Part shown: positions 12,995 to 27,800 of the stretch, one piece after another
Position numbering within the stretch: position 1 is the stretch's first letter
Layout of the letters: every line of letters begins with the position of its first letter
NCBI GenBank assembly: GCA_947382625.1
Contig: CANDAG010000001.1
Location: 1-64,000, forward strand
DNA: 64,000 bases
Origin: an uncultured Lachnospiraceae bacterium
GTDB lineage: Bacteria; Bacillota; Clostridia; Lachnospirales; Lachnospiraceae
Direction of reading: 5' to 3'
The notes under the pieces: model-generated
Told to the model about the DNA's origin: nothing
Seen by the model: only the letters and a program-made list of their open reading frames with translations
Database searches by the model: none
Program-made: the position numbers and the translations under genes

Positions 12995-13150
12995 CAGGGG
13001 AAAAGGAAAGGCGGACTTTCATTTCACAGCGACCATTACCAGAGATGATTTTATTACGGAAAGGCAATATGAAAGCTTTCGAAAGAGAGCGGAGGTTCTT
13101 GGATTGAAAATGGGGTGATGTGCAGAGGTTGATGTTCATATGTATGCCGG
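12995..13150. other. Intergenic stretch with a possible gene remnant
   Basis: Between the transglutaminase-like gene and the structured repeat, one plus-strand frame ending with TGA at 13116-13118 reads FTATITRDDFITERQYESFR and looks protein-like, but it lacks a good start and is only ~40 codons long. It may be the tail of a decayed gene. Nothing else is recognised here. Confidence 0.25.
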
Positions 13151-13245
13151 AGGCCGCCCAGGCAGAGGTAAAGCCCTACGTTGCCGCACTTTCGCTCTAC
13201 AAAAGCAAACGCAGTGCTTACAGGACTTTACCTCTGTTTGGGTTA
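13151..13245 (+). repeat. Structured repeat element, copy A (candidate non-coding RNA or MITE)
   Basis: A 17-pair closing stem joins CCCAGGCAGAGGTAAAG (13157-13173) to CTTTACCTCTGTTTGGG (13226-13242); two of the pairs are G-U in the plus-strand RNA. The enclosed core CCTACGTTGCC...CGCTCTACAAAA recurs in copy B at 16473-16623 on the opposite strand, whose stem differs by compensatory changes. A small inner hairpin AAGC/GCTT follows the core. Confidence 0.7.
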
Positions 13246-13280
13246 GTTTACTTATTTTAAGATTATTTGGTAATATTCGT

Positions 13281-13898
13281 TTAAAGTTTCCTTTTGGGAG
13301 ATGCTTTTTCAAGGGCAGATGCAATGTTTATCAGGTCAACAAACCATCCTATTCCAAACAGGCCAAACGTAAATAAATATATAATTCCCCAAAATGGCTT
13401 TTCCTGGTAAAATTTGTGAGCGCCAAAAAAACCGAGGAAAAGGCATAACCAAAATGAAATCAGAGTTTTTTGATATATATTGCCCGTGGATTGCATCTGG
13501 CGCGTATTGTCTATAATGCCTTCAGAATAAAAACTGGTGGGATAAACAGATTCGCCATAGGACTTTGATACCTGGTGCTCAGATGCTGATGCGGTTTTTA
13601 TAAATCTGCAATCATGTTTTATATATATGGTGGAATTACTCTGGTATTCTACATGAGACTCCTCATACGCACTTGCATAAAAAATATTGTCACTCCTTTG
13701 GGGAGTTCCGGTCTGTGTAACAGAAGGTGTAATTTCATCGTATACATAATTTTCCAGAGCAGTTTTACTGCCTGAAGTAATTATTTCCTGAATGGTAACG
13801 GGTAAATGACGAAGCAATTCATTTTCTTGGCTGATCTTTCCCTTTTTATAACCATCAGCACATTCTTTTACAAGAATTTCTACAGATTTTCCGGGCAC
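13281..13898 (-). CDS. TM2-domain membrane protein, probable 3' half of an Mrr-TM2 gene
   Basis: Up to 205 residues from a GTG at 13898. The last ~70 residues are a TM2 domain: two transmembrane helices around WLCLFLGFFGAHKFYQEKPF and FGLFGIGWFVDLINI. The first ~130 residues are a linker with no known motif. Reading upstream of the GTG in this frame gives KKLKVTLV, which continues the Mrr-like protein of the other frame in a natural way. The two halves meet at A AAA AAC (13929-13923), in the phase required for -1 frameshifting. It is therefore either a single gene expressed by a frameshift, or one broken by loss of one A. An independent ribosome site before the GTG is not convincing. Confidence 0.6.
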   Translation of the reverse strand: MPGKSVEILVKECADGYKKGKISQENELLRHLPVTIQEIITSGSKTALENYVYDEITPSVTQTGTPQRSDNIFYASAYEESHVEYQSNSTIYIKHDCRFIKTASASEHQVSKSYGESVYPTSFYSEGIIDNTRQMQSTGNIYQKTLISFWLCLFLGFFGAHKFYQEKPFWGIIYLFTFGLFGIGWFVDLINIASALEKASPKRKL

Positions 13899-14290
13899 GA
13901 GAGTAACCTTGAGTTTTTTGAATCTTCTATAGCCTGCTTTGTAAAAGTACTGTTTGTAACAACTGTGGCGCGGTCACAGTTGAGAACCTTTGCTCCGGTA
14001 TATACTTCCTGTATCGCCTTATAGCTTACTGTTTTTGAGTACAATTTACACTGGAAAGCATATTTTTTATATGCCTTATATGCAATAATATCAACTCCGT
14101 GGTCACCACTTCCTTTTGTCACCATGACCTGTGGATAGCCCATACATTTCAAATATAGCGCGTATAAATATTCATATTGAGGTCCTGTCATATCTGGTGT
14201 TTTCCTTTTGCTCTTAAAATTCTTTTCTATAGGAACACAATTTAATAGGAGATATTCTTCTATATAATTTAACCGAAGCAAAAGTGGCAT
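13880..14290 (-). CDS. Mrr-like restriction endonuclease domain protein
   Basis: 136 residues forming an Mrr_cat/PD-(D/E)XK nuclease core. TGPQYEYLYALYLKCMGY is the first helix, GSGDHGVDIIAYKAYKKYAF the catalytic Asp strand, QCKLYS the Q-x-K motif, and FTKQAIEDS the final helix. Such domains cleave foreign or modified DNA. The expected last strand is missing: after KNS the frame runs to a stop in 10 residues, while the -1 frame continues correctly into the TM2 protein. The ATG at 14290 overlaps the upstream gene by 22 bases, implying translational coupling. A membrane-tethered Mrr enzyme is the likely full product. Confidence 0.7.
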   Translation of the reverse strand: MPLLLRLNYIEEYLLLNCVPIEKNFKSKRKTPDMTGPQYEYLYALYLKCMGYPQVMVTKGSGDHGVDIIAYKAYKKYAFQCKLYSKTVSYKAIQEVYTGAKVLNCDRATVVTNSTFTKQAIEDSKNSRLLSCPENL

Positions 14291-15357
14291 GGCCGATATC
14301 CCTGGGATATTAATTCTTCACGGGTACTGTTTGTTGATATACAGTCTTCCGGTTTGGAATAATAGTTTATATATTTACAGCCATTGGGAATGTGAAAGTA
14401 TTGGTCACTTGTGTTAATAATATACGCAAAAGAACTTGCATCCTGTTGCAAAGAGCTGCTATCAGTATTATTAGCACCGTTATCAGTAAAGCTCCCGGAG
14501 GTCTCAGTATCCTGCTGTAATGCAGAGTTATCATAGGAATTAGAAGCATAAGTATTATCAGAGGAACCGCCAGAAGTAATACTAATATAGTTTTTCAGAC
14601 AATGTTTGCAATGTTGGTATCCCTGTGCTTCTAAGTCATAAAAAGAACTGTTGGAAGTCGCGTAATTCTCTTCGGACATCCTTCTTACATCATTACAACT
14701 GGGAAGGTGAAATTTTTTACTACTGGTATTCAGCACAAAAGCGTATGCAGTCTGCTGTAAATGAGGATTATCATGAGTATAGAAATTATCTGCATTTCCG
14801 GAAAAATTTGCAGAACTCATTTCACTACTGCTCGGGAAGGCTCCTTGCGGGGAGTTTTGCTCCGGTGAATAAGAATTCTCTATGCGATTCGAGGGCGCAT
14901 TGTACTCCTGCATAGTGGTATAAGATTCCTGCGTGGCCTGCGCTGGCTGAGAGATTGCGTCATTTGGGTCGTTTTCTTCCGGCAATAGAATCTGTTGCTC
15001 CTGTCCCCCGGATAATTCTTCCCGGTGAGCCAAATCTTCAAAAACAGTCTGTTTAACAGAGCTGTAGTCTGCGCTAAAATTCTCTGATGAGGTGTTATTA
15101 ACGATTTCCTCTGTATGTCCTTCAAATATAGGAATATTGTTCTGGTCATTTTCAGATGATATAAACGGGGCTTCTTCGTGGAAATTGTCTGCCTGAGCAG
15201 AGACAATGCCTGGGGAATCTCCGGGAATGTTTTTTCTGGAAAAGTCGCCATTAAATTGAGGATAAATCAGAATATATCCAACAAGAACAGCGGCATTCAG
15301 ACCTACTATTGCCATGAACAGGGTCATTAGCCGGATTAATAATGTGTTTTTCGTCAT
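14269..15357 (-). CDS. Membrane-anchored protein with two His/Cys repeat motifs
   Basis: A 362-residue protein starting at the ATG at 15357, which follows AAGGGGG (an upstream ATG lacks a ribosome site). One transmembrane helix (about residues 8-30) leads to a long Ser/Asn/Gln-rich linker. Two copies of a ~45-residue module sit at about residues 205-260 and 315-362: Y.LNTSSKKFHLPSC...L...GY..CKHC and YIINTSDQYFHIPNGC...LISQGYRPCHFC. These modules accompany surface nucleases and competence-type proteins in Firmicutes and probably bind metal (Ada-like fold); that is family knowledge recalled, not proven here. It is encoded directly upstream of the Mrr/TM2 genes and overlaps them, so the set is likely one operon. 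Confidence 0.6.
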   Translation of the reverse strand: MTKNTLLIRLMTLFMAIVGLNAAVLVGYILIYPQFNGDFSRKNIPGDSPGIVSAQADNFHEEAPFISSENDQNNIPIFEGHTEEIVNNTSSENFSADYSSVKQTVFEDLAHREELSGGQEQQILLPEENDPNDAISQPAQATQESYTTMQEYNAPSNRIENSYSPEQNSPQGAFPSSSEMSSANFSGNADNFYTHDNPHLQQTAYAFVLNTSSKKFHLPSCNDVRRMSEENYATSNSSFYDLEAQGYQHCKHCLKNYISITSGGSSDNTYASNSYDNSALQQDTETSGSFTDNGANNTDSSSLQQDASSFAYIINTSDQYFHIPNGCKYINYYSKPEDCISTNSTREELISQGYRPCHFCFG

Positions 15358-15411
15358 TGCGTAATCCCCCTTAAGAAGTTCCTGCTTTTTATGCAAGATG
15401 ATTTTATACAT

Positions 15412-15583
15412 ATTATAAGTGACTGTAATAAGAAAGTAAATATTGAATATATTATAAAAATGATATCACTAAATAAGTATATTTTGATAATATAAAGTTA
15501 ATATCATAAATATACTTCGCTATTTTGATATAGAAACGGGGAAATAATCAAATCTATAATGTAACAAAAAGGAGATCCCAGTT
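15412..15583. other. AT-rich divergent promoter region
   Basis: This 172-base region separates the minus-strand Mrr/TM2 operon from the plus-strand CopG-like gene. It is very AT-rich. A TATAAT at 15555-15560 could serve the plus-strand gene, but I see no well-spaced -35 box. Confidence 0.4.
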
Positions 15584-15763
15584 ATGAATAAATTTGTGAT
15601 TCCTCCCAAAGAAGACAAAATGGTAACCATGACCATACGCATTGATAGAGAGTTACAGCATAAGTATGATGAGCTTGCAAAAGAAACGAAGCGTTCCCGA
15701 AATGAACTGATTGGCATGGCGTTGCAATATGCGCTTGATAATATAGATAGAAGCGGACAGTAA
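15584..15763 (+). CDS. Small CopG-like ribbon-helix-helix protein
   Basis: A 59-residue gene starting at ATG 15584 after AAAAGGAGA, ending with TAA at 15761-15763. The product contains the ribbon strand KMVTMTIRIDRELQHKYDEL and the helices AKETKRSRNELIGMALQYAL, the classic ribbon-helix-helix layout of DNA-binding antitoxins and regulators. No toxin gene is adjacent on the same strand. It may regulate the divergent Mrr/TM2 operon (inference). Confidence 0.75.
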   Translation: MNKFVIPPKEDKMVTMTIRIDRELQHKYDELAKETKRSRNELIGMALQYALDNIDRSGQ

Positions 15764-15880
15764 CTATGAAGCCGCAGGCTGAATAGTTACGTTGGCATAA
15801 AATTTTACGGGAAGTCCTATTCACTTTCTTATTAACATAAGGATGGCTGATGGAGTCTGGCATCCGTTGGTTGTGCTTGC
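15761..15880. repeat. Hairpins after the CopG-like gene, including a REP-like element
   Basis: TAACTAT at 15761 (containing the stop codon) pairs with ATAGTTA ~20 bases on. Further along, ATAAGGATG and CATCCGTTGG enclose a loop, the same layout as the other small hairpins of the window (ATAAGG, stem, CCGGTGTTT). I see no gene in 15764-16017. Confidence 0.45.
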
Positions 15881-16017
15881 CAGAATCTAGGTACAAAGAA
15901 AGCTTACCACTGACCAATATGTGGTATATAAATGGTTGGGCCGAAAGTGCAGTCCTTTGCCGCAAGGCGGGGGATTTTTTACATCCTGTCAGGAAAGTGT
16001 CCCTGACGGATTAATTA

Positions 16018-16383
16018 TTAAATTATCTCCATGCCCAAAGAGTATCTGATTTCCTGTTCTAATTCCTCATCAGATAAATCGTATGGGAAGGGATCAGCAT
16101 CTTCATAGGGGCCTTCCTGATGCTCTGAAAACTCTAATACAAGAAAAGGCTTTTCTGGAAAATATACACTATCCACTCGTATATAGTTATCTTTTCTTTT
16201 CCAAATGTGCTTTTGGAGTTTGGCGTTATAGCTGGTGTCGCTACTGAGTATCCAGGTGTTTTTTTCACAGGAGTCCTTTACATATTCGGATCCATATTTT
16301 TGTAAAATCTTCTCCACAGCAACAATTTGTGCAAGGAACTCTGATTTGCTGATGTGGGAATAAGGCCATTGATATTCTTTCAA
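16018..16383 (-). CDS. Hypothetical protein, 121 residues
   Basis: An acidic, soluble protein (MKEYQWPYSHISKSEFLAQI... ending in LSDEELEQEIRYSLGMEII). Its size, acidity and high aromatic content recall immunity- or SMI1-like proteins, but I do not recognise a family. The upstream minus strand has AAGGAGAA before the ATG. It stands alone between a repeat-rich spacer and the large palindromic element B. Treat as a genuine gene of unknown role. Confidence 0.55.
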   Translation of the reverse strand: MKEYQWPYSHISKSEFLAQIVAVEKILQKYGSEYVKDSCEKNTWILSSDTSYNAKLQKHIWKRKDNYIRVDSVYFPEKPFLVLEFSEHQEGPYEDADPFPYDLSDEELEQEIRYSLGMEII

Positions 16384-16472
16384 TTTTTTCTCCTTGCTTT
16401 TTAAGATTTTATGTTGAAATTATAATACTTTTTTTATACGCAGGGGAAGAGATTTGTTGCTTTTTACAGGTT

Positions 16473-16623
16473 GGCCAGGAAATCAGCCCGGACAGGGGCA
16501 AAGCCCTTAAGGAGTCCTTTCAAAAACACTGGTACTTAACGAGGTTTTTTCGAGTTTAGTACCGCTGTGTTTTTGTAGAGCGGGAGCGTGGCGACGTAGG
16601 ACTTTGCCCCTGTCCGGGCGGCC
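16473..16623 (-). repeat. Structured repeat element, copy B (candidate non-coding RNA or MITE)
   Basis: A perfect 18-pair stem joins GCCCGGACAGGGGCAAAG (16486-16503) to its complement at 16602-16619, extended by GGCC/GGCC. A second inner hairpin pairs CAAAAACA and GGTACT with AGTACC and TGTTTTTG (16521-16575). Read on the minus strand the core GTCCTACGTCGCC...CGCTCTACAAAA matches copy A at 13151. Beyond this and the ispE promoter, the 423 bases between 16384 and 16806 hold nothing I recognise. Confidence 0.72.
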
Positions 16624-16686
16624 TGCTGACGTACGTGCGAAAAGTCACGAGACTTCATCCATCGTAGAGACAACGCCGGATAAATA

Positions 16687-27625: not shown

Positions 27626-27657
27626 AAAAAAATCCCCGCCATATGGCAGGGATTTTT
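27626..27657. terminator. Bidirectional terminator of the small RNA
   Basis: AAAAATCCC plus GCC pairs with GGC plus GGGATTTTT around ATAT, with seven A on the left that become a U tract on the minus strand. Confidence 0.85.
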
Positions 27658-27800
27658 GAGCATTTTTTTTCAGCATTGGCTGCCTACGCCGGTTTGAGGT
27701 TTCACTGCACAACCCCTCCTGAAAGCTCTGCAAGGCAATGCATACCGGCACACTCCCTTACTTCATCACTTGAACAGACACACGGCGTTGCCTGTCTTAT
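27626..27800 (-). ncRNA. Candidate abundant small RNA (possibly 6S RNA)
   Basis: A perfect sigma-A promoter points into a ~175-base region with no credible reading frame, which ends at a strong terminator. On the minus strand the RNA can form a rod: TGTGCCGGT pairs with ACCGGCGTA, then CATTGC with GCAGTG, leaving an apical loop rich in G. Size, promoter strength and rod shape fit 6S RNA, but I do not recognise diagnostic sequence, and SRP RNA signature motifs are absent. The neighbours (PBECR4 gene, glycoside hydrolase gene) give no clue. Identity is inference; the transcription unit itself is well supported. Confidence 0.6.

Follow-up and report, generated by a model that had tools for sequence, protein, structure and literature searches.

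A Lachnospiraceae family of dispersed palindromic elements, probably moved in trans, with a covarying hairpin core

The 64,000-nucleotide stretch of DNA analysed here (the window: positions 1 to 64,000 of contig CANDAG010000001.1, assembly GCA_947382625.1, from an uncultured Lachnospiraceae bacterium) contained two related palindromic elements, A (13133..13245, plus strand) and B (16456..16648, minus strand). A sequence-only reading of the window had claimed that A on the plus strand and B on the minus strand share the blocks AGGCCGCCC, AAAG, CCTACGTYGCC and CGCTCTACAAAA in identical order, and that their closing stems differ by two paired changes with pairing kept. The blocks were seen as claimed, and the paired changes are real, as the stem sequences show: CAGAGGTAAAG/CTTTACCTCTG in A (13163-13173 with 13226-13236, plus strand) and CAGGGGCAAAG/CTTTGCCCCTG in B (minus strand).

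Element B is a near full-length copy. In its own direction on the minus strand it consisted of a mutated 5'-end terminal repeat (GTGACTTTTCGCACGTACGTCAG; 16626..16648), the 5' arm of a closing stem, P1 (16598..16620), a conserved core containing the P2/P3 hairpin and a GNRA-like hairpin (16508..16597), the 3' arm of P1 (16486..16507), and a mutated 3'-end terminal repeat (CTGGCCAACCTGTAAAAAGCAAC; 16456..16478), the arms being assigned from sequence and fold. With its terminal repeats B spans 16456-16648, wider than the 16473-16623 first assigned to it, and no exact target duplication was found at the flanks of this interval. The strand of the B core that folds would be the plus strand of the window.

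Element A is a deletion derivative of the dispersed element, a decayed copy that has lost most of the inner hairpin. On the plus strand it retained a remnant of the left terminal repeat (13133-13150), the 5' arm of P1 (13157..13176, from sequence and fold), a remnant of the conserved core (CCTACGTTGCC ... CGCTCTACAAAA; 13175..13204) and the 3' arm of P1 (13226..13242); its right terminal repeat was unrecognisable. The 3' arm takes part in the two G.U pairs on which the sequence-only reading had based its choice of the plus strand. These pairs exist and are atypical for the family, and the choice of strand is not supported, the conserved noncanonical features lying on the complement (see below).

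Both elements folded better than 200 shuffles on both strands, as palindromes must. RNA folding gave z of -4.4/-5.0 for A (plus/minus) and -7.0/-7.4 for B (minus/plus); DNA folding gave -2.5/-3.7 and -6.9/-8.3 in the same order. With DNA folding one of the 200 shuffles equalled the A plus strand, and none equalled the A minus strand or either strand of B.

A 148-base query from B gave 18 BLAST matches in its own genome. As A and B were two of these 18 they are not a special pair, and both are copies of one dispersed element. Across 60 genomes, 21 had a BLAST match: the own genome, 20 of 35 of its genus and none of 24 from other families. A covariance model built from 27 of 36 distinct copies found 15 copies in the own genome and matched 60 of 392 genomes of the order, spanning 27 of 174 genera; the matching genomes listed were all from the own family. 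A core pattern, which fixes CGCTYYCGCTC, CTARRCTCG and CCTCGYYAA, found at least 119 stretches. Among the matches listed, record labels included Lachnospiraceae, Acetatifactor, Butyrivibrio, Roseburia, Eisenbergiella, Robinsoniella, Lachnospira, and [Clostridium] symbiosum, and a few records were labelled Clostridiaceae or Clostridiales bacterium. Plasmids contained no match to the element. The sole phage match, a 25-base identity to the core in a small phage record (bajarodino virus 59, PQ006109.1:1912-1936), is probably due to chance.

With up to 150 candidates scored per genome, the 12 genomes counted held 134, 76, 58, 30, 22, 19, 18, 18, 15, 15, 11, and 10 matches, the 134 cores coming from one 3.3-Mb genome, G427. 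Being short, without a transposase gene, and repeated within the genome, the element has the properties of a miniature inverted-repeat transposable element (MITE).

On the core strand of the sequence-only reading, the order of parts was terminal repeat, P1, CGTCRXC, CGCTYYCGCTC, the P2/P3 hairpin with its bulges, and the return strand. P1 was mostly ~20 to more than 80 bp long. Among 172 copies, 156 were kept by stem score and 154 of them were free of N; in these 154, three bases of CGTCRXC paired with GX'Y, X-X' being CG in 86, AT in 37, GC in 15, and TA in 7. The letter invariance of CGCTYYCGCTC, CTARRCTCG and CCTCGYYAA comes partly from selection through the scan pattern, and the outer part of P2 aligned poorly (222 of 1,384 cells unpaired otherwise).

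Terminal inverted repeats (GTTACTTTTCACANGNAYGCCAG) flanked the copies of the own genome, and full copies carried two main types of such repeats. Both terminal repeats were present in 30 of the 172 copies (two fixed motifs, 14 and 16), and a single end in further copies. The end GTAACAGTTCAGCCCA occurred at 436 sites in G427 (at most two mismatches), compared with none for a control pattern. The full-length element was ~190-230 bp; within 400 kb of G427, all copies looked at that had a whole core and both near-consensus ends measured 196 bp. A possible third end type, CACGGAAATCAATTTTCAGTC, was seen on the same core in L073, L129, L182, L195, and G427:C60, and other, larger repeats of G427 shared the end GTAACAGTTCAGCC. 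In L173:3790-4040, L100, and L178 the palindrome ran past the terminal repeats, and two copies of this kind were apparently nested in the middle of another palindrome. Growth of the palindrome into host flanks was considered and dropped as too rare, at 4 copies (the two nested ones among them) out of 55 that had both ends.

Exact 8-bp target duplications were found at five copies of the own genome: TACAGGCT, GTTTAGCC, TAAATCCC, GCCTTTTG, and AATTCACC. Among 203 distinct copies (from 230 matches), 11 had both an exact 8-bp duplication and matching ends, compared with 0-1 per control run; three of the 11 (L163, L168, and L254), which lacked the usual ends, may have arisen by chance. An exact 8-bp duplication flanked four of the 11 196-bp copies in the 400 kb of G427, and a fifth was off by one base.

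The ends of the element were similar, not identical, to those of autonomous IS66-type elements carrying a PF03050 transposase; the IS66 family includes a single-frame, ISBst12-like subgroup. In the own genome, GTTACTTTTCACACC..ACGCCAG ends lay around a PF03050 transposase. IS66-type ends of the same genome, at L081/L082 (G000:C5:10206-21107), were separated by 10.9 kb and had a 9-bp duplication, the PF03050 transposase lying towards one of them; some of the frames between these ends looked mobilisation- and primase-like by eye. A complete element of 1,824 bp in G023 with GTAACTATTCAGCCTT ends held a frame of 485 aa (PF03050) and had an exact 8-bp duplication. Full identity to known insertion-sequence ends had been named in the sequence-only reading as evidence against selection on structure. 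This evidence was found in part: the terminal repeats resemble those of IS66-type elements, but the core was unseen in both such elements examined for it (L081/L082 and L206).

The sequence of P1 varied between copies and species, yet the two arms matched inside each copy. Among 21 copies of G427, arms mismatched by 4.6% inside a copy and differed by 26.9% between copies, and the core differed by 2.0%. Pair counts from 140 distinct closing stems of the 172 gave no clear strand preference: G.T and A.C numbered 157 and 126 in 5,768 pairs overall, 57 and 62 in the inner 25 pairs, and 100 and 64 farther outward. Six pairs of loci were candidates for orthologous sites, one of them unaligned; at one site (L104/L164) a block had changed in both arms.

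Inside the element, 23 of 31 pairs changed on both sides among 27 copies (shuffles, mean 13.1; slid structures, 4-7), the 31-pair structure having been set on the same 27 sequences. For the count of further pair types the excess over shuffles was less clear, as 33 of 500 shuffles reached it. The copies used for these and the noncanonical counts came by BLAST or model and so lean to similar sequence. Two-sided changes numbered 126 and one-sided changes 11, with 1.3% G.U and 1.8% A.C. In related genomes, signal recognition particle (SRP) RNA gave 135 two-sided and 48 one-sided changes with 14.8% G.U and 0.2% A.C (orientation set with 29 of 30 loci, one with N being left out), and drum RNA gave 20 and 13 with 18.1% and 1.9% (7 of 8 loci, one being below the family cut-off). 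The window has a drum RNA of its own at 27655-27771, minus strand (RF02958, 89.6 bits), also found in 6 of 35 other genomes (E <= 0.001). RNAalifold's own structure for the element carried the same message more weakly (2.2% G.U, 1.3% A.C, 113 two-sided to 18 one-sided changes). Thirty-six model matches from other genera held 726 Watson-Crick, 9 G.T, 4 A.C, and 11 other pairs. Were a helix under selection as RNA of one strand, G.U should be preferred to A.C on that strand; because G.U was not so favoured, pairing seems to be maintained in the DNA itself, whether through selection on a DNA fold, through copying between the arms, or through both.

Several noncanonical features were conserved on the complement of the core strand, often with tandem G.A among them. 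A T.T pair was present in 34 of the 36 matches from other genera, 33 of 33 in G427, and 22 of 23 in the genus; overall it was kept in 89 of 91 model matches with letters there. A GNRA-like loop started with G and ended with A in 35 of the 36, and its third base was a purine in all 36 and in all 91 matches with a letter there. Consensus folding energy was -32.3 on the complement and -25.3 on the strand favoured by the sequence-only reading. A kink-turn at the purine-rich internal loop next to P1 was rejected, since the register of the outer helix was unfit and many copies had a continuous helix.

Taken together, A and B are probably members of a superfamily of Lachnospiraceae elements that are non-autonomous and MITE-like, are moved in trans by IS66-type DDE transposases and have a DNA fold under selection. 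The substrate of an IS66-type transposase would be the terminal repeats as double-stranded DNA, and insertion would take place with an 8-bp stagger. Once single-stranded, the complement of the core strand would fold into one branched hairpin. This DNA fold, with its bulges, T.T, G.A, and GNRA-like loop, would be maintained by selection because it is read by some factor. Template switching, in which one arm is copied onto the other, would let the sequence of the long closing stem drift without loss of matching. The alternative offered by the sequence-only reading, an undescribed non-coding RNA or a folding-dependent mobile element, is carried forward in its second half, with which the dispersed copies, terminal inverted repeats, 8-bp duplications at some of the copies, IS66-type ends, and strong paired changes fit. 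A bolder version, which we regard as unlikely, is a new kind of structure-recognised mobile DNA: the folded single strand with its T.T, sheared G.A, and GNRA-like loop would be what matters, it would ride with more than one type of terminal repeat, and its life cycle would include the rewriting of its closing arms by self-templated synthesis, so that only one arm is in effect inherited.

Several observations weigh against movement by IS66-type transposases with a selected fold. Most copies were without an exact target duplication. PF03050 was found in only two of eight element-bearing genomes (several of them draft assemblies) and not in G427, and close relatives of the own transposase occurred in 6 of 60 genomes, compared with 21 of 60 for the element; five of those six held the element and one (G025) was without it. 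No obvious transposase frame was seen between end pairs 0.6-5 kb apart in the 400 kb of G427, judged by eye from sequence starts. Two core-less palindromes of 74 and 58 bp (G427:C60:123901-123975 and 226630-226688) had the same ends and exact 8-bp duplications, and are deletion derivatives or core-less movers; as they keep exact duplications, the core may be unneeded for movement. The idea that cores enter ready-made palindromes was set aside because the short same-end sites found in this 400 kb seem to be deletion derivatives and not empty palindromes, which is not proved. The tandem G.A of P3 was present in 24 of the 36 matches from other genera and the internal-loop G.A in just 11, and a purine-only third loop base would suit RNA too. 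Finally, at four of the five orthologous sites that aligned (L091/L115, L108/L128, L123/L197, and L160/L184), every change in the inner stem fell on the 5' arm. Arm matching is therefore not kept everywhere after insertion, and copies with matched arms may be the young or active ones.

The best-surviving rival is a plain MITE whose fold has no function, with template-switch correction matching the arms during replication and cores alike through recent sources. In Escherichia coli, template switching is known to make inverted repeats more perfect (PMC7202029), and in nematomorph mitochondria the arms have been described as changing in concert (PMC6649704). The paired block change at L104/L164, the strict Watson-Crick pairing of P1 without strand preference, and the low divergence of the G427 cores all suit this rival. 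However, correction alone should erase the T.T mismatch and the conserved bulges, and the core was recognisable over 27 genera while the arms were not. As arm correction alone would erase these features, a recognised folded single strand plus drifting arms is favoured; we infer a function for the core, and consider a wholly functionless fold unlikely.

Somewhat harder to sustain is a structured non-coding RNA family carried by transposons and transcribed from the complement strand. Strong covariation and stable folds would agree with it, as would tandem G.A in many copies and the purine at the third loop position, its best point; prokaryotic MITE transcripts with stable stem-loops have been described (PMC10969869). 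Against it stand the scarcity of G.U beside the SRP and drum RNAs and the sole P1 excess of G.T, outside the inner 25 pairs, which lay on the strand without the conserved loop. Comparison with Rfam, which the sequence-only reading had proposed, gave no family at gathering score; the best sub-threshold score, 20.1 bits, was to a microRNA family with a cut-off of 62. Gene context was mixed as well: orientations to neighbouring frames numbered 40, 38, 30, and 19, with 26 copies overlapping a frame and 13 at an edge. The non-coding RNA half of the sequence-only reading is not supported by these results, and we think an RNA family doubtful.

Inverted neighbours less than 700 bp apart were always '+ then -' (24 to 0), and a same-direction pair occurred once. 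Further close same-direction pairs were seen at G335:C17 and G427:C118, and one '- then +' pair was 1,443 bp apart (G427:C115); neighbours were mostly single or inverted. Some inverted pairs were repeated composites and others enclosed other genes (e.g., L109:1857-2645 and L117:6580-7811). The inverted arrangement recalls the preferred dimer of repetitive extragenic palindromic (REP) sequences (PMC3733652, PMC3116915), and the hairpin with conserved mismatches likewise resembles them, but movement as single-stranded DNA through a Y1 (RAYT-type) transposase, which would make the element REP/REPIN-like, is very improbable in view of the 8-bp duplications and IS66-type ends, and no such gene was prominent by eye in the 25 largest neighbouring-frame families, no Y1 search having been made.

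The same 25 families, the largest among 537 neighbouring frames, showed no transposase by eye that could be a partner gene. Replication-strand bias was also rejected, the core strand lying on the G-rich strand in 54 of 115 copies overall and in 17 of the 35 from G427. In the window, a Mrr-like restriction endonuclease domain (PF04471; 13883-14290, minus strand) lay between A and B, adjoining a TM2-domain protein, and a YhgA-like (Rpn-type) protein (PF04754; 8223-9206, plus strand) lay ~4 kb from A, with no link to the element seen.

Covariation is commonly taken to prove RNA structure, and a family with strong, nearly G.U-free covariation is both a warning case and a control for RNA discovery. 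The family is also a natural experiment on how DNA palindromes stay matched. It is a common genome component, reaching the 134 cores of G427, in an abundant family of gut bacteria; no description of it was found in the searchable literature, with preprints and most subscription papers outside its reach.

Known systems resemble the element in part. IS66-family elements (PF03050) share the terminal repeat types and the 8-bp duplication, whereas here no transposase is carried and the core was unseen in the two such elements examined. Integron attC sites have variable stems and conserved unpaired features on one strand, as does the element, which differs in having no direct-repeat arrays and in ends that start GTTAC/GTAAC with duplications; no integrase sign was seen among the neighbours looked at, no search aimed at integrases having been made. 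REPs are not known to have target duplications, in contrast to the ~196-bp copies with duplications in G427. REPs and REPINs are likewise dispersed hairpins with one preferred type of inverted dimer (PMC3116915, PMC3733652), but REPs are 20-40 bp long (PMC3733652) and RAYT-linked, compared with ~200 bp and terminal repeats here. The coding palindromes of nematomorph mitochondria likewise have arms that change together and stay matched, but they lie within genes (PMC6649704), unlike the dispersed mobile elements described here with their common core. Closest are the bacterial MITEs (PMC10969869), which are short, geneless, and dispersed, with terminal inverted repeats, target duplications, and stem-loop potential; the element differs from them in the conserved noncanonical positions of its covarying hairpin. 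A MITE with a hairpin is a known kind of element, and what is new is a core common to different terminal repeats, matched arms specific to each copy, and Watson-Crick-only covariation.

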